A stretch of DNA of 64,000 nucleotides from Prochlorococcus sp. AG-402-N08 (GCA_003216535.1 QCIS01000004.1:62001-126000), one strand, 5' to 3'; counted from the stretch's first letter, positions 9,806-58,076 are shown. The notes: generated by a model from the letters alone, not told the origin. Translations and numbers: made by a program.

Positions 9806-10303
9806 TTATTTGATTTCATCCTGAGCTAATTCGTATTTCTCTAATAGATTGTTTACTTCTGCTAGTGCAATCCTCTTTTGACAGGCCGAGTCATATCTAT
9901 TTACTGCTACTGAAGGTATTGAACCTTTGCTTTTCATTTCCCTTATACCAGTTTCTAAACATTGAAAAGCAACACTTGATAGATCTCTTCCTTCTGCTGC
10001 GGCCCAAACTTTCAAAAGATAAGTAAGGTTTGATGGCACTGAGATCTGTACTTTGTTTGAATTTGAAGTATTTAATGCAATATCATCGAGACTAATTTCT
10101 TTAGAGGATATAGTTTCTTTAACCTTTTTCTTCAAAAATTTTACTTGGCTTACAGCGTCCTCTTTATTCTTAATTTTCTGCTCTATTTCAAATAACTCTT
10201 CTTCAGAATTAATTAAAGCTTCTAATGCCCATTTAGCATCATCTTTCCCAACAGCGGTTCTATCAAGCCATTCATCTCTTATTTTTGACCAATTGCTGGG
10301 CAT
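9806..10303 (-). CDS. Hypothetical protein, possible ribbon-helix-helix-like segment
   Basis: 165 aa; VQISVPSNLTYLLKVWAAAEGRDLSSVAFQCLETGIREM. Confidence 0.6.
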   Translation of the reverse strand: MPSNWSKIRDEWLDRTAVGKDDAKWALEALINSEEELFEIEQKIKNKEDAVSQVKFLKKKVKETISSKEISLDDIALNTSNSNKVQISVPSNLTYLLKVWAAAEGRDLSSVAFQCLETGIREMKSKGSIPSVAVNRYDSACQKRIALAEVNNLLEKYELAQDEIK

Positions 10304-10569
10304 AAGCTTTATGCGATAATTCTATAGTATATAATTCTGAATAGATTGTCTATCGATTCTAAATAGATTTAATATAGATTCAATAATGTTCTAATTTTAT
10401 CTTTAATAATTCCTCATCTTAGAAATAATCTTTTAAAAGAATTGAAACTGCAGAATCTATCCAATATGAACTTAGAGATATTTTTTCGTTAATTTAAAAC
10501 GATAAATTAGACAATTCAATCTTTTTAAATTTTAGTTATTTGTTTATTTAATTAAAGACTTCTGAGCTT

Positions 10570-10959
10570 TTAATCTCTTTCAATAAGTTCAATTTTATAA
10601 CCATCAGGATCCTCAACAAAAGCCAAGACAGTAGTACTGTTTTTCATTGTTTTAGGTTTGGTTATTATTTTGCAACCATTACTTTCTAATCCTTGGCAAA
10701 TTAGATGAATATCTTTTACTCCAATAGCTATATGACCATATTTATCTCCAAGCTCATAGTCTTCAGACTTTTTGTCCCAGTTATAAGTTAATTCAATTAC
10801 TGTGTTTTCTTTTTCTGAGCCATACCCAACAAATGCTAAAGTGAATTTTCCATGAGGGTAATCCTTTTTCCTTAATAAATTCATTCCTAATCTATTGACG
10901 TAGAAATCAATGGATCTATCTAAATCTCCGACCCTCAACATTGTATGTAGAATACGCAT
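10570..10959 (-). CDS. gloA: Lactoylglutathione lyase (glyoxalase I)
   Basis: [47 protein letters not shown]...[13 protein letters not shown]. Confidence 0.92.
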
Positions 10960-11091
10960 CTTAAATTATGAACCCTAACCAATTATCTTATATTTAATAA
11001 CCATCTGCCAAAGTTGATTTTTTCGAGGCTTAGTCTTTTATTAAGTTAAGAAAATTAGGTTAAAATACGAATACGAAATTTCAATAATATA

Positions 11092-11526
11092 TTGAATCAG
11101 ATATTCCAGAGACTCTCATCAGTATTTTTGTATACTTTGCCATTAAAGGCATCAATACCTTTTGGATATTATTTGTTCTATAAATATTCATTTTTAAAAA
11201 TACTATTATTTCTAACTTTCCCGATAGCAATAATTGAAAAATCTTTGCCTTTTGGTAGTTTTTTATTATTTATAATTTTGTTTGCTGGATTAGTAAGAAA
11301 TCCAAATGTTCCCTATTTCGTTAGATATAACGCATGCCAAGCATTACTTATTGATATTGCTTTGATAATAATTTCATATCTCTTGAGAATATTTCCCATA
11401 GTTGAATTAGGCTCAATAATTTTTATATTTACACTATGTATTTTTATTTATTCTATTTCGCTATGTATTTATGGAGTTGAACCTGAAATTCCCTTAATTA
11501 GTAAATCTGTAAGAATGCAAATTTAA
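11092..11526 (+). CDS. Tic20/Ycf60-like membrane protein
   Basis: 144 aa polytopic; PNVPYFVRYNACQALLIDIAL segment; TTG start. Confidence 0.7.
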   Translation: MNQIFQRLSSVFLYTLPLKASIPFGYYLFYKYSFLKILLFLTFPIAIIEKSLPFGSFLLFIILFAGLVRNPNVPYFVRYNACQALLIDIALIIISYLLRIFPIVELGSIIFIFTLCIFIYSISLCIYGVEPEIPLISKSVRMQI

Positions 11527-11553
11527 AAAGATTTATAGATTTAATGACTTTCT

Positions 11554-11883
11554 TCAACACTCATTCAGAATAGATTCCCATCTTTGTTGACTTGCCTTTA
11601 TTGCTTGCATTGGCGGATTAGCCCCCTCTATTTCAAAGGCTTTAATTAATGATTTATTAGCTAATAGACCTAATCTTGCTGCCTCTCTTTGCCTAGAACA
11701 TACTTTTTTTCTTGACCCCTCTTTTAAACTATTTTCGATTTCTCTAAGAATCTGGCTAGCTTCATTCGATTTAGAATAAAAATCATTCATGTAAACATCA
11801 AGTGCCGTATCAGCAAAGATTTCAACTGGAAAGATTATTGTGACTAAGCACACTATAAAACTTACAAATACAAATATTTTCAT
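11554..11883 (-). CDS. Secreted hypothetical protein
   Basis: 109 aa with N-terminal hydrophobic signal; RKKVCSRQREAARLGLLANKSLIKAFE. Confidence 0.6.
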   Translation of the reverse strand: MKIFVFVSFIVCLVTIIFPVEIFADTALDVYMNDFYSKSNEASQILREIENSLKEGSRKKVCSRQREAARLGLLANKSLIKAFEIEGANPPMQAIKASQQRWESILNEC

Positions 11884-11890
11884 AAGAATC

Positions 11891-12475
11891 TTAAGTTAAT
11901 TTTTTGTCTGATCTCTTTAATACTAAATAAAAGGTAAGAACGCTAATTGTTCCAGATGGGCCTATTAAAACATGCCAAAATTGATCGCCACTAATTGAGA
12001 GCCTTGTGCCAAAGAAAGTCGTAAAAATAATACCAAATATTGGGTAAAGAATAAAAAGCCAATCTTTAAAAATTCTTTGCCAATTTATAATAAGAAGGAT
12101 ACTTATTATTACTTGAAAAAGGAGAGTAATAGTTTTATCAAATAAAAAATATGAGATTATTGAACATAAAGAAATACAAATATTAGTTTTTTGAATAAAT
12201 TTATTTTTTATAACTGATATTGATAAACATGTTAGACCTAAAGATAGGAAAGAATAAAATAACCAATTAAATAAAGAGGAGTGATCTACATAAATCCAAG
12301 ATGTTTGGGTATGATCTATCATTTCAGAAATCGATGCCAATCCTAAAAAAATAAAACCGAAAGGTATCAATTTGTTCTTGCTTATATGTTTGAATTTATT
12401 GATCGATCTGATGCCTAATAATATTGGGATGATTACCGCTTGAAAGTGGGCAAAAAATAAAATTGAAAAAAACAA
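11891..12475 (-). CDS. Polytopic membrane protein, unknown function
   Basis: 194 aa, multiple hydrophobic segments. Confidence 0.6.
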   Translation of the reverse strand: MFFSILFFAHFQAVIIPILLGIRSINKFKHISKNKLIPFGFIFLGLASISEMIDHTQTSWIYVDHSSLFNWLFYSFLSLGLTCLSISVIKNKFIQKTNICISLCSIISYFLFDKTITLLFQVIISILLIINWQRIFKDWLFILYPIFGIIFTTFFGTRLSISGDQFWHVLIGPSGTISVLTFYLVLKRSDKKLT

Positions 12476-12529
12476 AATAAATTCTAAAATTTAATTCATT
12501 CTAATTTAAATAAAAAAAACAATTTCGGG

Positions 12530-12730
12530 TCACCTGAGTAGAGAAAGGTACCATTGCCCAATTACTATAATCAATATTGTAAGAACTAAAGGGAAAGCAG
12601 GATATCGTGTTTGAAAATTAGCAGGTGGCCAAGGAGACCAAGATATTAATCTTCCTTGCGGTTCATTTGAAATAACTTTTTTTTTCGATTTTTTGGATAT
12701 TAAATTTTCTGTGGCAAATCCTTTACTCAT
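12530..12730 (-). CDS. Small single-TM protein, unknown
   Basis: 66 aa; C-terminal FPLVLTILIIVIGQWYLSLL. Confidence 0.5.
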   Translation of the reverse strand: MSKGFATENLISKKSKKKVISNEPQGRLISWSPWPPANFQTRYPAFPLVLTILIIVIGQWYLSLLR

Positions 12731-12803
12731 AATCTAAATAAAATCCATCTTAACAAGAACGTTTCAAAAGGGCGTTGATATTATTAGGTTCTTTTTATTT
12801 GAA

Positions 12804-12864
12804 CGGAGGGAGTGGGATTCGAACCCACGGTGCCCTTGCAGACACGCTAGTTTTCAAGTCTAGA
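12804..12864 (-). pseudogene. tRNA-Ser 3'-half fragment (att-site-like remnant)
   Basis: cggagggagtgggattcgaacccacggtgcccttgcagacacgctagttttcaagtctaga matches 14245 onward with two mismatches, then diverges in the anticodon-stem region. Confidence 0.9.
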
Positions 12865-12910
12865 TGTAATCAAGTTATAGCAATAGATTTACTAAGCCTT
12901 AAGGAACAGA

Positions 12911-12929
12911 TATGACCGAAATATGCCCG
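12911..12929 (+). repeat. ATGACCG-type paired repeat, left copy
   Basis: TATGACCGAAATATGCCCG; 18/19 identical to 14098-14116; units 11 bp apart. Confidence 0.8.
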
Positions 12930-12986
12930 TTTTATAAATAGATTAATTCAATAAATATCTAGAGGATTTTGCAAGTAGTAAACGTT

Positions 12987-14006
12987 TCAACATCTCCACT
13001 CTCTGAAACTATCCCTAGCATCCTTATTTCCAAGTTTCTTAGAAGTTTTCCAATCATCACAGGCATTCTTCCTCTTATTTTTCATCCAGCTATAAACATT
13101 GCCTCTTGCCATATAAAGATCAGCAGGAGTAATTAAATCAACATCTCTATCCAATTCAATTCTTTCAGCTTCTTCTTGTGAAGGAGCTATAGAAATTGCT
13201 TTTGTATAATGTTCTATTGCTTCGTTTTGATATTTTTTTTCAGATATTTTATCTTTCTTATCCCTATACAATAAAAATAATTCAAACTTGGTATCTCCTA
13301 AAATAGCAGTTGTTGTATAGGTTACTCCTAGAGGAAAAATACTTTCAGCTGATTGATTCTTGTAAGTTTCAATATTGGCTAATGTTTTTTCAAAACTTTT
13401 TTTTGCATCCTCAAAGGATTGCAAAGATAATTCTTTTTTGTTTTTAGACTTTTTACTTAAGTCATTTGTATCTCCACCTAAGATTACGAATCCATTATCG
13501 TATTGAATATCTCCTGCTATAAAATTAATAAATGGGTCTTCAGGAGAAAGATTCATCCCTTTTCCCAAATATTTAAGAGTTTTTGCAAGGCTACCGTCCA
13601 AGTCCCAATAAAAAATATCAGCTTTAAGCGCATGAGCGTAAGCATAATCTTTATCTATATCAATAGCATTATCAATATCTCTAATAGCTTCGTCAAACTT
13701 CCCTAAATCATAAGCATTTATCAATGCGCTTAATATGAAGCCTTCTTTAGAATTTGGATTTTTCTTTAAGTAAGAATTTATTGATTTAATTGCTCTCAAG
13801 GAAGATCCCTCTTTAAAAAAAACTAAAGCATCATCAAATTCAGATTTATTATATGAATCTTTTCTTTTTTTGACAGACATGCTCTTTACACAGCCTTCAA
13901 AGTCAGTCGCTTTCATGCATATTTCAGCAACTTTTGGATCTATATTTGCATTGACAGCAATCGGCAACGCAAGTGCTGTTAGTAGTGGAAGTAAAAATCT
14001 TTTCAA
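12987..14006 (-). CDS. Secreted TPR-repeat protein
   Basis: Signal peptide MKRFLLPLLTALALPIAVNA; TPR-like helical repeats (AIRDIDNAIDIDKDYAYAHALKADIFYW). Confidence 0.75.
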   Translation of the reverse strand: MKRFLLPLLTALALPIAVNANIDPKVAEICMKATDFEGCVKSMSVKKRKDSYNKSEFDDALVFFKEGSSLRAIKSINSYLKKNPNSKEGFILSALINAYDLGKFDEAIRDIDNAIDIDKDYAYAHALKADIFYWDLDGSLAKTLKYLGKGMNLSPEDPFINFIAGDIQYDNGFVILGGDTNDLSKKSKNKKELSLQSFEDAKKSFEKTLANIETYKNQSAESIFPLGVTYTTTAILGDTKFELFLLYRDKKDKISEKKYQNEAIEHYTKAISIAPSQEEAERIELDRDVDLITPADLYMARGNVYSWMKNKRKNACDDWKTSKKLGNKDARDSFREWRC

Positions 14007-14080
14007 AACAAGGAGATATCTAACCCTTATTGTAAATTGAAATTCAAAAATTTAAATGCTCCAGTCATATATAACCACTT

Positions 14081-14116
14081 ATGACCGATTTTTATATTAT
14101 GACCGAAATATGACCG
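14081..14116 (+). repeat. ATGACCG repeats, right copy (3 units)
   Basis: ATGACCG at 14081, 14099 and 14110; last two spaced 11 bp. Confidence 0.8.
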
Positions 14117-14244
14117 CTTTTGTTCTTCAATATTCGGTAATAGGGAGGAACAGCAAGGAATAAATAATTATCTAAGGACAATAAAAAAAGACCCCGAAGA
14201 GGTCATAATCCTTGTAATAGCAATGTATATCAGGTTTTCAAGTA

Positions 14245-14331
14245 CGGAGGGGGTGGGATTCGAACCCACGGTGCCCTTGCAGACACGCTAGTTTTCAAGA
14301 CTAGAGCCTTAAACCACTCGACCACCCCTCC
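14245..14331 (-). tRNA. tRNA-Ser(UGA), intact
   Basis: Reverse complement GGAGGGGTGGTCGAGTGGTTTAAGGCTCTAGTCTTGAAAACTAGCGTGTCTGCAAGGGCACCGTGGGTTCGAATCCCACCCCCTCCG: class II tRNA with long variable arm, acceptor stem GGAGGGG/CCCCTCC, anticodon TGA. Confidence 0.96.
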
Positions 14332-14476
14332 AGGTGAAATATTTAGTTTTAACTTTTGAATTATAGCAGTATTGAGTTACAGAAAGGTTTTCTGATTTAG
14401 TGGATATTTAAAAATAAAAATATGTTTTATGATTTGAATTTACAAATGAGGTTTTAAAAGTAATTTTCAAAGAAAA

Positions 14477-14495
14477 TGGTCCCTATTTGGTCCCC
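14477..14495 (+). repeat. TGGTCCC paired repeat, left copy
   Basis: TGGTCCCtattTGGTCCCC, units 11 bp apart. Confidence 0.75.
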
Positions 14496-14519
14496 TTTAA
14501 TTTTAGATCGACTGTCAAT
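14492..14519 (-). repeat. Dispersed repeat (TTGACAGTCGATCTAAAAT...AAGGGG), copy 1
   Basis: cccctttaattttagatcgactgtcaat on + strand. Confidence 0.7.
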
Positions 14520-14558
14520 TACTAACTATTAGCAGTGCAAGTAGTAAGCGTTTCATCT

Positions 14559-14819
14559 TTATGCAATAAGCTCAATTGCATAGACGGTATCCTTACAATT
14601 ATTTTTTTTGTCCCACTCTTTAGCCGCATCTGAAGTCATTTCAGCTTCTAGTGCTTTCATATCTAGGACGTTCATAAGTAAATGAGATTTATTCTCGCCA
14701 GCTTGTACAAACTCATATTCTGAAATCACATCAACGCCCATAGCGGTAATAAATCCAGAGATGTCGTTTTTAAATTCTTCAAATGAGCAGCTAAAAGTCG
14801 AAATAATAAGGGTGTTCAT
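14559..14819 (-). CDS. Small hypothetical protein, perhaps related in role to the adjacent DUF3303-like gene
   Basis: 86 aa; preceded by dispersed repeat copy 2. Confidence 0.6.
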   Translation of the reverse strand: MNTLIISTFSCSFEEFKNDISGFITAMGVDVISEYEFVQAGENKSHLLMNVLDMKALEAEMTSDAAKEWDKKNNCKDTVYAIELIA

Positions 14820-14862
14820 AAAAAAGGAGCTAATTGCCCCTTATCTTAGATCGACTGTCAAT
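14820..14862 (-). repeat. Dispersed repeat copy 2, including GGGGC-AATTA-GCTCC-T-run hairpin
   Basis: aaaaaaggagctaattgccccttatcttagatcgactgtcaat; directly abuts the ATG of the 14559-14819 gene. Confidence 0.8.
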
Positions 14863-14868
14863 CTCTAT

Positions 14869-15141
14869 CTATGAGTAGACTTTAGCAACTATTGGACCAG
14901 CTTCTTCATCAGTAAATACAGGGGTGGTTTCCCAATTTAGAAATTCAGCCCATTCAGCGGCATGTTGATATATTGCTTTTGGATCATCAGTCTTTAAAAC
15001 TATCCAACCCTCTAAAGAACCAGGTGCATGATACCTTCCAATCATTTCAACTCCAGGATAATCTCCCCCACCACCAAGAAATTTTTCTGCACCTTTTTGA
15101 TGATATCCAGTCTTAAATGACCAATGCTGAACATAAAGCAT
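14869..15141 (-). CDS. DUF3303-like protein
   Basis: MLYVQHWSFKTGYHQKGAEKFLGGGGDYPGVEMIGRYHAPGSLEGWIVLKTDD. Confidence 0.7.
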   Translation of the reverse strand: MLYVQHWSFKTGYHQKGAEKFLGGGGDYPGVEMIGRYHAPGSLEGWIVLKTDDPKAIYQHAAEWAEFLNWETTPVFTDEEAGPIVAKVYS

Positions 15142-15257
15142 TTTTTTTAATTTTTATAGGCTTTATATTACTAGCAAAAAAAAAAATTCTTGAAAATAAA
15201 TAATGTTAATTGCCCCTTATTTTATCAGTGTGATTCTTAAATTATAGATATTTTTAC

Positions 15258-15276
15258 TGGTCCCAAAATGGTCCCC
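15258..15276 (+). repeat. TGGTCCC paired repeat, right copy
   Basis: TGGTCCCaaaaTGGTCCCC, units 11 bp apart, same arrangement as 14477-14495. Confidence 0.75.
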
Positions 15277-15378
15277 CTGTCTCGATGGCTAAACTTTATT
15301 ATCAATATTGTCTTATTGAGATCTATCTTATATCAATGCTTTTAAAAAATTCTTATAAATTCTTTTTATCGAGACTCC

Positions 15379-15422
15379 CTAGTTTTCAAGACTAGAGCCT
15401 TAAACCACTCGACCACCCCTCC
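15379..15422 (-). pseudogene. tRNA-Ser 5'-half fragment
   Basis: ctagttttcaagactagagccttaaaccactcgaccacccctcc identical to the 5' half of the intact tRNA (14288-14331). Confidence 0.92.
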
Positions 15423-15778
15423 AAATGGGTTATTCAGTCTTAACCACCTAATAAGTATAGCAAAGGGAAGTGACAGCCTAAAATAAGCGTTGTAGCGCAT
15501 TCTGAGACTCATACAAACTATTCTGTTAATGTTTGATATAGTACCAACTGCTGTAGCTGTATCACTCCATGTTGCAACCCTACTCCTATGTAGTAAACCT
15601 TCAAAGATATGTGGAGGCACTTCGCTATTAGCAATAGTTGGTCTTCCTCTAATAATTTCACTCATACTTATACGTTACCAACGTGACCGTGATACCGCAT
15701 CTGTGCATTAAAGTTATATTTTCTATTCTTAGATCTAAAAAATCTATAATTATTTAATACTAGAAAATTGAATTTAAA

Positions 15779-54058: not shown

Positions 54059-54368
54059 TTCAATAATATACTTAAAAGAAAATTTTTGTCTTTATATAAG
54101 TATCTCCTTATATTAATAATTTAGTTTTTTTCAATACTACTAAATAAAAAGTTTTGCATTTCTATATTTGATCTTTTTCAAAAAAGATTGAAATTAATGA
54201 TTATAACTTAATAAATTAGTCACAGTCTATAAATTCAAAGATTTAAAAATTATTGTAAGAAACTAGTTTGAGGTAGGAATTTTTATTAATAATGATTAGT
54301 TAAATCGTTATAACAATCTATTATTAGTCAAATTTAGTCCGCAAAAATATAGTCTGCTTCCAAAAAAA

Positions 54369-54518
54369 TCACCCAAAGTTGATATTTTCTTGAAATAAAC
54401 CAAATAAGTTATTACCAACTATTGCTGCGATTATTAATACGAAGGCAACTATAGCGAAAAGAGCACTAACATCTTTTATGTCATAAGGAGCTTTAAATAA
54501 AGGTTTCTGGTCTGCCAT
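54369..54518 (-). CDS. Small single-TM protein, 49 aa
   Basis: MADQKPLFKAPYDIKDVSALFAIVAFVLIIAAIVGNNLFGLFQENINFG*; read directly from sequence, absent from the ORF track. Confidence 0.55.
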   Translation of the reverse strand: MADQKPLFKAPYDIKDVSALFAIVAFVLIIAAIVGNNLFGLFQENINFG

Positions 54519-54608
54519 AATTATCAAATCTATAAATGCAATTGAAACACATTATTTTAATGCTTGTGAGAAGTATTAAGTTATTTTTTTTAGTCTAAGT
54601 TTGGACAA

Positions 54609-54638
54609 TAAAAAAGCCACTAAAAGTGGCTTTTTTAT
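54609..54638. terminator. Bidirectional Rho-independent-type terminator
   Basis: aaaaaagccactaaaagtggctttttta: perfect GCCAC/GTGGC stem flanked by A- and T-runs. Confidence 0.88.
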
Positions 54639-54654
54639 TTAACTATTAAATAAA

Positions 54655-54756
54655 CTAGCTTGTATAAGCTTTGCCTCTGTAAGTTAGTTCATTATGCTGC
54701 TTCTTAGCTGCTTCTTTGTTCTGGACGTACTTTTGTCCTCTGTAAATTAGAGTCAT
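54655..54756 (-). CDS. 33-aa DUF4278-like small protein
   Basis: MTLIYRGQKYVQNKEAAKKQHNELTYRGKAYTS*; two (L/T)xYRGxxY motifs; followed by a strong terminator. Confidence 0.78.
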   Translation of the reverse strand: MTLIYRGQKYVQNKEAAKKQHNELTYRGKAYTS

Positions 54757-54855
54757 TTTTTAAGCTCCGGTTTCGCTTAAGTCCCCGTTCCATGGCTTAA
54801 GTCGATTTGCGGCTTGCTAAACGCAAGTTGAACGTTTTGGTAGCGGTTGCTACAA
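54757..54855 (-). ncRNA. Structured 5' leader (possible sRNA) of the 33-aa ORF
   Basis: Three inverted repeats: GTAGC-GGTT-GCTAC (54840-54853), CTTGC-TAAAC-GCAAG (54813-54827), CTTAAG...CTTAAG (54776-54801). Confidence 0.5.
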
Positions 54856-55062
54856 ACTTAAGATAACATCCAAGGAAATTATTTGTCTAGCTCTTTAATA
54901 AATAAACTTAATATATTAATGATAGATTAGGTTTCTGCTAAAAATATTTATACATTATCGCTATGTAATTGCTTACAGGTTACATTTTGTTCGTTTTTGA
55001 GAAGTATTTTTTATTTAATGAACTTTTAAATGTAAAATTCTTAAGATTATAAAATTTGTTTT

Positions 55063-55257
55063 ATGTTTTCTAGAAGCAAAAAAACTACAGTAAAAAAATC
55101 TGCAATAGTTGAAGAGACACCATTATTTGCTCAATTACTACCATTCGCAAACAGAATGAATGATAAAGTTCAATTAGTAAATGCTTTAGCCTTTACTTTT
55201 ATTATGGGATTCTCAATTTTTGGAATTGCTCTGTGGAAACTTTCAGGACTTACTTAA
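55063..55257 (+). CDS. Small single-TM protein, unknown
   Basis: 64 aa; PFANRMNDKVQLVNALAFTFIMGFSIFGIALWKLSG. Confidence 0.6.
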   Translation: MFSRSKKTTVKKSAIVEETPLFAQLLPFANRMNDKVQLVNALAFTFIMGFSIFGIALWKLSGLT

Positions 55258-55520
55258 TTATTTAATTTTTGCAAAGCATTTATTTTTGATTCTTTGTTTT
55301 TGATTATTGTTACTAACCACTTAGAGGCAAGTCCCCTAGATATTGATCTATTTTTTAGAAATCTACATATATAGATGTGTAGATTTTTTTCATTTTTGGA
55401 GTTAAATTTTTCTTCAAAGTCTAGTATTTCTTCTTCTGAGCTTCTTTTTCTTAGCTCATCCACTAAGGCATGACTAGAGGAATCATTAAATAAGTTCCCA
55501 ATATTTAAGCTTAATGTCAT
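55254..55520 (-). CDS. Hypothetical protein
   Basis: 88 aa, convergent with and overlapping the end of 55063-55257. Confidence 0.5.
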   Translation of the reverse strand: MTLSLNIGNLFNDSSSHALVDELRKRSSEEEILDFEEKFNSKNEKNLHIYICRFLKNRSISRGLASKWLVTIIKNKESKINALQKLNN

Positions 55521-55608
55521 AAATCATTTATGTCCCTACTTAAGAGTTAGCCATAAATTAAATTTTTAAAAACTAATTTATATTTTTTATTTACAAATAA
55601 TTTAAAAT

Positions 55609-57942
55609 TTAATCTTTAGGTTTAGCCAAAGGAAGCAGGCACTTATCTGAATCGCACCCAGCTGGCCCAGCTTCAGATAGTTCTCCAACATCATATTTAT
55701 TAAGAGCGTCAAAGAAGTCGTTATTAACTTTCCTCTCTATTACTTTATTTTGCAATGATATATATTCCTCTTTACTTATTGGTTCAAAAGGCAATCTCGG
55801 GAAAGTTGCGTTGGCACTAAATCGAGCTAGTAATGCTGCCGAAATATACCCCTCATTATTTTCTATTGCACTATGAATAACCTTAGCTATATCCTCGATT
55901 TCATTTTCTCTAAATTCTACGGTTGCAGAGGTATTATGCTCTGTGTAAAATTTCTGCACTTGCATGTAAAAATCAAATTGAGCTAATGCTGAGAAATTAT
56001 TGATGTCTATAAGGTCTGCGCCTTCTATATTTGCCCAGCTAACTTCTGTAGGGATTTCAACTAACCATTCTGTACATCTTGGATCAAATGGATTATCGAG
56101 CAAGCATCCATTTTCATCTTTATCAGATTGAGATGGAACAACTGAGTAACCATAATCCATGCAAGCTAAAGCAATTGGATCATTTTTCCTGAAAGTTATT
56201 CTTCTAATGAATCTTTGAGCTTTTGGAGGATGCCATCCTGGAGCCGCTCCTGTTAGAAGACTTTTAGTCCCAGCTGGCTGAACAGTTGTACATCGATTTG
56301 GTCTTCTTAGATTATGTTTATCGCAATATTCCCAGACAGTTTCTTTTACTATTTTTCTCCAGGAATCTAGGAATTTAGCCTCCTTCTCCTTGAAAGCCTT
56401 TCCTTCTTCGTTATTTGGCCTTCCTTCTTCCCACCACTTCAACCATGGCGTCCCAAAAGCATGGACACAAAAATCAAATAATCCAGTGAAACTTACCCCT
56501 ACAATAGGGTCATATTCTCTACTTTTTCTGTAACGCTCAACTTCAAATTCATGATTAAGTAAGCATGCTACAGAAAGAGCTGCTGCTTTAAAAGCTTTTT
56601 TTTGCTCTTCAAGATTTCCTGGATCAATCTGATTTAAATGAACTTCAGCCAAATTGCAGTGGAAATCATTTCCTAAGATCTCCCCACAAGGGTTAAGTCC
56701 ATATCTGCTCATCCTGTGGTCTAACTCTTCTTCAGAAAATGGACCATAACTACTATTTATCCAATTTCTCGCTTCATCCTTACCTTGTTCTGAGTAGATT
56801 TCAATAAATTCCTTTCTCAATTCATCATCTTTGAGAATATCTGCATTTGACCTTGCGATTGCTTCTGGAGCAAATTGAATTGCCCCCTCACCTGAATGGA
56901 ATTGTTTTGTTACGGCATCCAAAACAGTTTGGTAAGTGGGTTTTGTATGGTAAACCCTAGTATGATTAGCCATCCTAAGGGCATCTTTTTCAGGATCTAT
57001 TCTCCAATTACCATTTTCATCTTGACTCCATAAATTTTCTTTTGCCGATGCTGCCTCCTTGTCATCTGAAGCAAATTGTCTCATTCCAGCACTTCTTCTT
57101 ATATTCCCAGCAACTATGGTTACTGCAGCTTCATCAATTAATAAACAACATTCTACTGTACTTAGTTTCCTTCCAATTGCCTTTCCAAGAAGTGATGCGA
57201 CTCTAGAGTAGAGATCTTTCAATTTGATAGGATTTGCCATGCCACCAAAACCTTTTAATGATTCTCCAGCAGGCCTAATATCTTCCAAATTAATGTAAAC
57301 ATCAATTTCTCTTTCAAGACTCTCATTACTTGATGCCTCAAGAAGATATTTATAGCTATCTACCCACCCTCTTCTGCTATCTCCAACTTTGATATGAAGA
57401 TCTTTTCCTTTGATTTCTAATGATGATTTTTCTTCTCTTTGATCTTTAGGAGTTATTCCAACTTCACTAACTGACTTAATATTTATATTGTTTATTACCG
57501 TAGGTAGATTATTTATAAAATGAGGCTCAATTATTGCACCTGTTCCACATCCCATCATTGCTAAGTCCATCATCAAAGCAAAGGCTTCCCAATCAATTAA
57601 GTTTGTTGAAGTACAGTTGTATGCCCCAGAGAAATTTTGGTTTTTATTAATCCAAGGAGTGCCTCCAATCCATAACCATCTCCCTGAAGGTTGGGCTTTT
57701 TGGTTGCTTTGCATCTCTCTCATTAGGATCAATTCTTCATCAGAAAGTTTTCCTAATTCTTTTAAACCCGATAAATTTCTTTCACCTACTTCGCTCCAGT
57801 TCTCCCTTTTGCCAGAGGTAGTTTTCCTGCTGTAAGATCTGAAAAAAACAGGATAAGCAGCTGGCGCAGTCTTTGGAAAATCATCTTTTTTAAGATTATT
57901 GGAATTGCTCTCTGAAGGAGCTTTATTTGGTGCAACAGTCAC
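55609..57942 (-). CDS. nrdJ: Adenosylcobalamin-dependent (class II) ribonucleoside-triphosphate reductase; GTG start at 57942 preferred to the ORF track start
   Basis: NPCGEILGNDFHCNLAEVHLNQIDP, GCGTGAIIEPHF, TTVQPAGTKSLLTGAAPGWHPPKAQRFIRR, C-terminal Cys pair region CDSDKC. Confidence 0.93.
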   Translation of the reverse strand: MTVAPNKAPSESNSNNLKKDDFPKTAPAAYPVFFRSYSRKTTSGKRENWSEVGERNLSGLKELGKLSDEELILMREMQSNQKAQPSGRWLWIGGTPWINKNQNFSGAYNCTSTNLIDWEAFALMMDLAMMGCGTGAIIEPHFINNLPTVINNINIKSVSEVGITPKDQREEKSSLEIKGKDLHIKVGDSRRGWVDSYKYLLEASSNESLEREIDVYINLEDIRPAGESLKGFGGMANPIKLKDLYSRVASLLGKAIGRKLSTVECCLLIDEAAVTIVAGNIRRSAGMRQFASDDKEAASAKENLWSQDENGNWRIDPEKDALRMANHTRVYHTKPTYQTVLDAVTKQFHSGEGAIQFAPEAIARSNADILKDDELRKEFIEIYSEQGKDEARNWINSSYGPFSEEELDHRMSRYGLNPCGEILGNDFHCNLAEVHLNQIDPGNLEEQKKAFKAAALSVACLLNHEFEVERYRKSREYDPIVGVSFTGLFDFCVHAFGTPWLKWWEEGRPNNEEGKAFKEKEAKFLDSWRKIVKETVWEYCDKHNLRRPNRCTTVQPAGTKSLLTGAAPGWHPPKAQRFIRRITFRKNDPIALACMDYGYSVVPSQSDKDENGCLLDNPFDPRCTEWLVEIPTEVSWANIEGADLIDINNFSALAQFDFYMQVQKFYTEHNTSATVEFRENEIEDIAKVIHSAIENNEGYISAALLARFSANATFPRLPFEPISKEEYISLQNKVIERKVNNDFFDALNKYDVGELSEAGPAGCDSDKCLLPLAKPKD

Positions 57943-58076
57943 GATAAAAAAAACGTATGTAAATAACCCGTACTGGAAGAATAACTCTACCTGTGGCGTC
58001 TGCAACCATTCTTACCACTATTTAACGGTTTGTGTAGAATTATGTTTAATATGAAATCTTTGTTTCAAGAAAGGAT

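Follow-up and report, generated by a model that had tools for sequence, protein, structure and literature searches.

How does a tRNA gene come to lie between a copy of its own 3' half and a copy of its own 5' half? This question is raised by a 64,000-nt stretch of the genome of Prochlorococcus sp. AG-402-N08, hereafter the window, in which the intact gene for tRNA-Ser(UGA) is flanked on either side by one such copy. The comparison of this locus with its counterparts in about 120 relatives, of which some 30 were picked for encoding a recombinase so that the frequencies reported below do not reflect a random sample, makes it very probable that mirror-image, satellite-like elements of the lambda type integrate via the anticodon stem-loop of the gene, restore either one or the other half of the tRNA and stack up on both of its sides.

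The half copies and the alleles of the locus

The intact gene, which carries a TGA anticodon and constitutes the target of integration, occupies positions 14244-14332 of the minus strand and is the sole tRNA detected by ARAGORN in the window. A repeat search located a 62-nt displaced copy of the native 3' half (12803-12864, minus strand, tRNA positions 28-89) that is 97% identical to positions 14244-14305 of the intact gene (60 of 62 nt), and a second repeat (15372-15444 versus 14281-14353, 88% over 73 nt) containing a displaced 5' half (15379-15423, minus strand, tRNA positions 1-45), which is identical at all 45 positions. The order of the three parts and their common orientation agree with a preliminary description of the locus, whose layout holds except that the 5' half ends at 15423 instead of 15422. 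As this description had also proposed, the breaks of both halves meet at the anticodon stem-loop, since the 17-nt sequence CTAGT-CTTGAAA-ACTAG is complete in either copy (12847-12863 in the 3' half and 15379-15395 in the 5' half) and the halves overlap in this region. The stem-loop is nearly palindromic, with 14 of its 17 positions agreeing with the reverse complement, and in light of this dyad and of the ends of half copies in relatives, it would form the recombination core (14288-14304), with the crossover located inside its 7-nt loop (14293-14299). In relatives, the 5' halves agree with the tRNA to about position 41-43 and the 3' halves from about position 33-34, the part common to both being the 7-nt anticodon loop, and the element-side bases beside the core vary. 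Of the two mismatches that distinguish the 3' half of the window from the intact gene, one falls in the core arm adjoining the element.

The gene for tRNA-Ser(UGA) was detected in 247 of 266 genomes of the genus (E≤0.001), and because the source genome contains only three matches to it, the two halves counted, it appears to be single-copy in this organism. Half copies with the same break recur in dozens of relatives and are absent from empty alleles, which excludes their origin by chance.

These alleles were catalogued in a census of 123 Prochlorococcus genomes, including that of the window, with one locus per genome. Many of the genomes are draft or single-cell assemblies, and the near-closed G001, G022, G029, G031 and G044 give the same allele classes. 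The left flank, downstream of the tRNA in relatives, is defined by gene G (12530-12730 in the window, minus strand), and the right flank by gene R1 (55254-55520, minus strand), which is located about 1.08 kb from the tRNA in empty alleles and is followed by R2 (55609-58005). Of 100 genomes that could be measured on the left, 46 have an empty site, where 72-107 bp separate the tRNA from gene G and where a 3' half is found in none; the site is occupied in the other 54, with a long 3' half retained in 18. Among 60 genomes measurable on the right, the site is empty in 20, with 1077-1108 bp between the tRNA and R1 and again no 5' half in any, and occupied in 40, of which 29 retain the 5' half. Both sides are empty in 11 genomes. 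The displaced halves reflect this native spacing: outermost 3' halves reside at 72-152 bp from gene G in 18 of 24 measurable cases, including the window, where the distance of 73 bp matches that of empty sites, and outermost 5' halves are found at their native position, 1020-1111 bp from R1, in 13 of 29 cases and farther out in the rest. The relatives thus do not share one arrangement; the uninterrupted sites that the preliminary description had suggested to look for exist alongside right-only (e.g. L018, L056, L148), left-only (e.g. L048, L182) and doubly occupied alleles.

The extent of the inserted sequence is illustrated by the doubly empty allele L174. Positions 12000-12864 of the window, which reach through the 3' half, correspond to 9110-9974 of L174 (96%), and positions 54189-56400 to 10021-12242 (91%), both window flanks being adjacent there. 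Because these flanks are neighbours in L174, the alignment identifies the whole of 12865-54188 as sequence inserted at the tRNA. The upstream region of the gene differs between alleles, as none of 28 tRNAs with native upstream sequence is accompanied by a 5' half, which is found in 22 of the 30 members of the largest element-type upstream cluster at a distance of about 122 nt. Elements on the right replace the 5' half of the tRNA together with its promoter, and elements on the left its 3' half.

Elements on either side of the tRNA and their recombinase-bearing relatives

In the window, the left side is occupied by a mini-element of about 1.38 kb that restores the 3' half (12865-14243) and whose ends fit a left family with conserved termini (DN cluster 1, J2 cluster 0). 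Directly downstream of the tRNA it supplies a terminator-like hairpin, GACCTCTTCGGGGTC-T7 (14183-14204, minus strand), and other members of DN cluster 1 contain terminator-like sequences at the matching place. The right side is occupied by a mini-element of 1,046 bp (14333-15378) that restores the 5' half and the promoter and whose ends are common to L010, L018, L059, L175 and L195. Gene scans of the two intervals, as of the 39-kb island that lies behind them, detect no integrase gene.

Each end of either element is marked by two 7-mers with a spacing of 11 nt. In the left element, repeat search and arm scoring define a distal pair ATGACCG/ATGCCCG (12912-12929) and a tRNA-proximal pair ATGACCG/ATGACCG (14099-14116) with an extra copy at 14081-14087, which read CGGTCAT or CGGGCAT on the other strand. 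In the right element, arm scoring identifies two copies of TGGTCCC (GGGACCA on the minus strand) in the tRNA-proximal (14477-14494) and again in the distal pair (15258-15275). Arm pairs that match at both ends with a score of 6-7 of 7 are found in 9 of 17 right elements including that of the window, with motifs that vary between GGGACCA, GAGACCA, GTGGACT, GTGGCCT and TGTTTCC. The mean arm score of right elements is 3.6, compared to 1.7 if ends are paired across elements and near 0 for shuffled ends; the signal is weaker in left elements (2.9 versus 2.0 for mismatched pairs). L056 and L058 were considered as clean complete elements and rejected, since their ends bear different arms, and they were treated as composites. 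The preliminary description had viewed the intervals as minimal or collapsed elements, of which the small size stands but not the mere collapse, since their matching ends give them the appearance of delimited, non-autonomous elements. Such small size is the rule: 22 of 23 left elements measure 0.5-1.6 kb, and the innermost right elements fall into three groups of 120-128 bp (22 elements), 0.6-2.1 kb (11) and 6.6-9.1 kb (8, of which 7 carry a recombinase). Most elements at the locus are minis without an integrase that range from about 120 bp up to 2.1 kb in size.

The displaced 5' half has a history of its own. The 73 nt upstream of it (15424-15496) correspond to the tRNA-proximal end found in satellites that carry a recombinase (90% identity to L158) and are followed by a small-terminase-like fragment (15526-15648, 80% to L158), together forming a satellite relic (15424-15648). 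Because this satellite end and the terminase fragment precede it, the 5' half at 15379-15423 must itself have been delivered by an earlier 5'-restoring element. The relic forms the edge of a strain-specific island of about 39 kb (15424-54188), an older insertion upstream of the tRNA, whose flanks are contiguous in L174 and whose genes are almost all missing from the other sampled loci; a possible decayed native 5' half near 54.12-54.17 kb gives a match that is not significant. Successive integrations at the anticodon loop that each regenerate a complete tRNA, as previously proposed, agree with these features, but their number does not remain at two, because the 5' half carries the end of an older satellite with the 39-kb island behind it and the window consequently holds at least three insertions. 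The events are also separate, as had been claimed, although not of a single kind, since one side harbours a 3'-restoring and the other a 5'-restoring element. A comparison of displaced copies in 11 stacked arrays found the inner copy to be better in 6 and the outer in 3 by script count, and 8 better inner copies with 2 ties once three weak matches (identity ≤0.61; L151 6503, L157 8632, L175 left 2310) were dropped by hand after the result had been seen, for which reason we regard this comparison as supportive only.

Full elements with a tyrosine recombinase and cargo, whose presence at the same attachment site had been suggested as a check, were found in relatives. A divergent tyrosine recombinase resides 5' of the tRNA in 30 genomes, and in nearly all of them it starts 146-230 nt away and points outward, the exceptions in spacing being L148 (699 nt) and L058 (428 nt for the called open reading frame, ORF). 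Residues R247, K272, R340, H363 and Y372 are invariant (alignment A1). If the tRNA and the next clear 5' half are taken as end points, the elements that bear it are 6.6-9.1 kb long, and genes for a VapE-like helicase (PF05272, E=1.5e-55), a Prim-Pol and a small-terminase-like protein occur in several of them. The combination of integrase, VapE/Prim-Pol and TerS at small size that characterizes phage satellites is thus found in several of these recombinase-bearing relatives but not in all. In L147, a second recombinase about 213 nt past the displaced 5' half reveals two recombinase-bearing elements arranged head to tail.

The same family is also found on the opposite side. In L073, a 12.5-kb contig from IMG/VR that also encodes Prim-Pol, VapE-like and TerS-like proteins, a homologous recombinase is located on the 3' side, directed away from the tRNA at a distance of about 185 nt, and a reading of its tRNA-proximal end would place this contig in the family of the left mini-elements. 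In L155, a recombinase of this family adjoins a displaced 3' half, and since it lies between this half and the element, it too belongs to the 3' side. In the recombinase tree, L073 groups with one 5'-side clade (support 90/83) and L155 with the other (84/78), and because they fall into different clades the family seems to have switched sides at least twice, with the root and these two long branches being uncertain. Searches of IMG/VR with the 5' half retrieved almost only complete phage-borne tRNA-Ser genes; one 5'-side recombinase as query found no relative there, and the 3'-side recombinase only its own contig.

Mechanism, alternatives and known systems

In lambda-type recombination, the core recognized by the tyrosine recombinase contains a 7-bp overlap. 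By analogy, the 17-bp anticodon stem-loop of tRNA-Ser(UGA) would serve as attB for lambda-type tyrosine-recombinase elements; its arms CTAGT and ACTAG would be the core sites, in inverted orientation, and the overlap would correspond to the loop CTTGAAA. The attP of an element would hold either a 3' half with its own terminator or a 5' half with its own promoter, and integration would leave a complete tRNA beside the element and the displaced native half at its far end. Since the tRNA would be intact after each integration, new elements would insert beside it and push older ones outward, independently on either side. On the 5' side of the window, the satellite-derived island of about 39 kb would thus have arrived first, followed by the integrase-less element of 1.05 kb, and the 3' side would have received its integrase-less element of 1.38 kb, to which we assign no order relative to the 5'-side insertions. 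A wider synthesis, which we consider distinctly possible although tentative, holds that the near-symmetric stem-loop allows one recombinase family to use both orientations, that either half is restored by satellites in mirror image and by followers the size of cassettes, after at least two switches of side, and that the locus has become an array with two ends and a rough order in time, whose cargo is exchangeable and in large part provided with a common secretion leader, and which at the same time acts as a site of promoter exchange for the only tRNA-Ser(UGA) gene.

The dynamics of the locus were assessed on a flanking-gene tree from 90 genomes, where changes in occupancy were compared with those obtained for shuffled labels. 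The observed numbers resemble the shuffled ones for occupancy (28 versus 29.6 on the left, 13 versus 16.2 on the right) as well as for the type of element end (56 versus 56.9 upstream, 44 versus 43.0 downstream), and the occupancy of the two sides is independent (Fisher p=0.42). Since occupancy does not follow the tree, the pattern signifies rapid turnover at the locus, proceeding by integration, homologous exchange or both.

Several observations weigh against the proposed integration of mirror-image elements. Turnover without tree signal could be explained by homologous recombination between the flanks. A shared arm pair is lacking in 8 of the 17 elements on the right and in 11 of the 24 on the left, be it as a consequence of decay, of composite structure or of the use of other arms. 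The recombinase matches PF00589 with an E-value of about 1e-4, which is under the curated Pfam cut-off, the position equivalent to lambda His308 is not conserved in the family, and a profile search of the PDB with the recombinases found no relative. A recombinase associated with the arm types of either window element was not encountered, and IMG/VR gave no exact match for the tRNA-proximal end of the right element. Catalysis by the recombinase, excision, the formation of circles and the mobilization of minis in trans are features that we infer from sequence.

Among the alternatives, the one that accommodates most of these points regards the minis as fossils of past recombinase-mediated integration that presently spread mainly by homologous recombination of the locus between strains. 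It would explain why no helper recombinase was found to match the window arm types, why occupancy shows no tree signal and why some half copies are decayed. We still consider it rather unlikely, as the 5' half of the window has remained identical over its entire length, as arm pairs in many elements still match each other yet differ between families, which suggests selection by active binding, and as inserts differ while the flanks stay close (L064 versus L169, with a flank divergence of 1.3%). A comparably doubtful proposal, already hinted at by the term "tycheposon-like" in the preliminary description, equates the elements with tycheposons as defined by Hackl et al. 2023, reportedly the paper introducing the term. 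Tycheposons share with the elements described here the genus, the use of tRNA sites, a tyrosine recombinase and cargo, and the larger relatives contain satellite-like genes; in contrast, the window elements of about 1.05 and 1.38 kb carry neither a recombinase nor hallmark genes of tycheposons and fall short of the 4-200 kb that are quoted as tycheposon size in PMC10872708. That a single element (12865-15378) had split the tRNA while carrying a complete rescue copy in its middle would fit the order of 3' half, intact gene and 5' half in the window, but it is very improbable and was rejected in light of the existence of one-sided alleles, the independence of left and right inserts and the fact that each interval is bounded at both ends by arms of its own, GGGACCA in the right and CGGTCAT in the left one. 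Equally hard to credit is the view of the half copies as debris of tandem duplication or recombination without a recombinase, which could invoke the missing integrase in the window intervals but is at odds with shared element ends, paired arms, empty alleles and a break that invariably falls within the 7-nt loop, and is contradicted by recombinase-bearing alleles at the same site.

The integration of mirror-image elements at one stem-loop has precedents in its parts. The window elements display the intact tRNA at one end and a correctly oriented fragment at the other, as well as the empty site in relatives, that define tRNA-targeting tyrosine-recombinase elements, whereas both lack the integrase that is present at the same site in relatives from 30 genomes. 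In the Islander survey (PMC4383910), where the intact tRNA and its fragment likewise mark the ends of elements, a 5' fragment was found in 159 of 3919 islands, and the anticodon-centred crossover was a common subsite (2083 islands); restoration of the 5' half is thus known, but unlike in these islands, 3'- and 5'-restoring elements here use one and the same tRNA gene. Cases with a 5' fragment are described as "considerably less frequent" than those with a 3' fragment in PMC6563490, which cites Zhao and Williams 2002. Similar to such 5'-restoring elements as CalSub-E1, those studied here would recombine with the 5' part of the tRNA and leave a displaced 5' fragment, but here this mode is very frequent, replaces the promoter and is mirrored by 3' partners that belong to one and the same recombinase family. 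Cis-mobilizable elements (CIMEs) and their tandem accretion (PMC5704250) provide another parallel, as the window elements have kept their att sites without recombinase or transfer genes and are stacked at one target, whereas their relatives are phage-satellite-like instead of conjugative, accretion proceeds on both sides and elements are as small as about 120 bp. A novel picocyanobacterial integrase distinct from those of tycheposons, which the available extract of PMC10187409 places upstream of tRNA-Phe or tRNA-Cys, is likewise a divergent tyrosine recombinase typically on the 5' side of a tRNA in variable islands; this likeness is one of description, the tRNA differs, and half copies or 3'-side counterparts are not described in that extract. 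Phage satellites such as phage-inducible chromosomal islands (PICI) and P4-like elements match the recombinase-bearing relatives in integrase, Prim-Pol, VapE-like helicase, small-terminase-like gene and a size of 6.6-9.1 kb. In the literature we found no account of a single tRNA shared by elements of one recombinase family of which some restore its 3' half and others its 5' half, with the limitation that Hackl et al. 2023, which was outside the comparison, may cover part of it. Integration at the 5' half has precedents, if infrequent ones, and the use of both sides seems to constitute a new variant.

Such a system could allow a streamlined and abundant ocean bacterium to load and unload very small cassettes beside an essential tRNA without harm. 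Since most elements at the locus contain no integrase and are below 2 kb, they would fail the integrase and 2-kb filters of Islander (PMC4383910) and escape standard island finders, and such traffic is therefore probably undercounted. Arm motifs that match within an element and differ between families offer a route to predict which recombinase moves which element, and the swap of the promoter at the only tRNA-Ser(UGA) gene raises the question of how it affects expression of the tRNA.

Cargo and further observations

The left element of the window encodes a 339-aa TPR protein (12987-14006, minus strand; TPR_1, E=4.1e-9) with a leader that is common to the cargo of many such elements, and the right element an 86-aa protein that matches no family in profile searches (14559-14819, minus strand) and a 90-aa DUF3303 protein (14869-15141, minus strand; PF11746, E=1e-24). 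In total, 46 ORFs, all located in variable intervals, start with a similar secretory leader (MKRLLLPLLAALALPTAVNA-like) that is joined to unrelated mature parts. Leader-coding places in the window include 12987-14006, 14536-14555 and 12970-12989, and others are found in L058, L157, L181 and further loci. Copies also occur elsewhere in genomes, as in G044 at 1411652 and 1416221, where they flank a recombinase at 1414312. A repeated motif, TTGACAGTCGATCTAAAAT(AAGGGGCAATTAGCTCC), precedes several cargo genes in the window (14500-14535 and 14843-14878) and in other genomes, and is perhaps a common regulatory site. PADLOC found no match among 43 cargo proteins of mini-elements. The pair of genes encoding the 86-aa and DUF3303 proteins (14559-15141), which is inside the right element of the window, is inverted and located outside the displaced 5' half in L001, L004, L012, L034, L060, L066 and L073, and it is apparently neighbouring DNA that was captured by the element. 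The island encodes between 15779 and 54058, among others, an Erv1/Alr-domain protein, an alpha-amylase, a thiamine pyrophosphate (TPP) enzyme, two OprB porins, a Mrp-type antiporter subunit and an SDF symporter.

In several satellites, a second, short tyrosine recombinase of 188-211 aa, which comprises only an XerC-like catalytic domain, is encoded in addition to the integrase (L157 8039-8674 and L158 3931-4503, both in the orientation of the analysis, L159 16142-16777, L073 3413-3979). L163 (G185 C15) contains the tRNA-Ser gene and the recombinase at both contig ends in inverted orientation, either as an assembly artefact or as a real duplication. In T7-like cyanophages, only tRNA-Leu attP sites have been found (PMC8776855). 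L074, a 46.9-kb IMG/VR contig of a T7-like cyanophage, encodes at 1139-2194 an integrase (39.6% to S-CBP1, 36% to P-SSP7) that adjoins a stretch of 56 nt without mismatch to the 3' part of tRNA-Ser(UGA), which is likely its attP.

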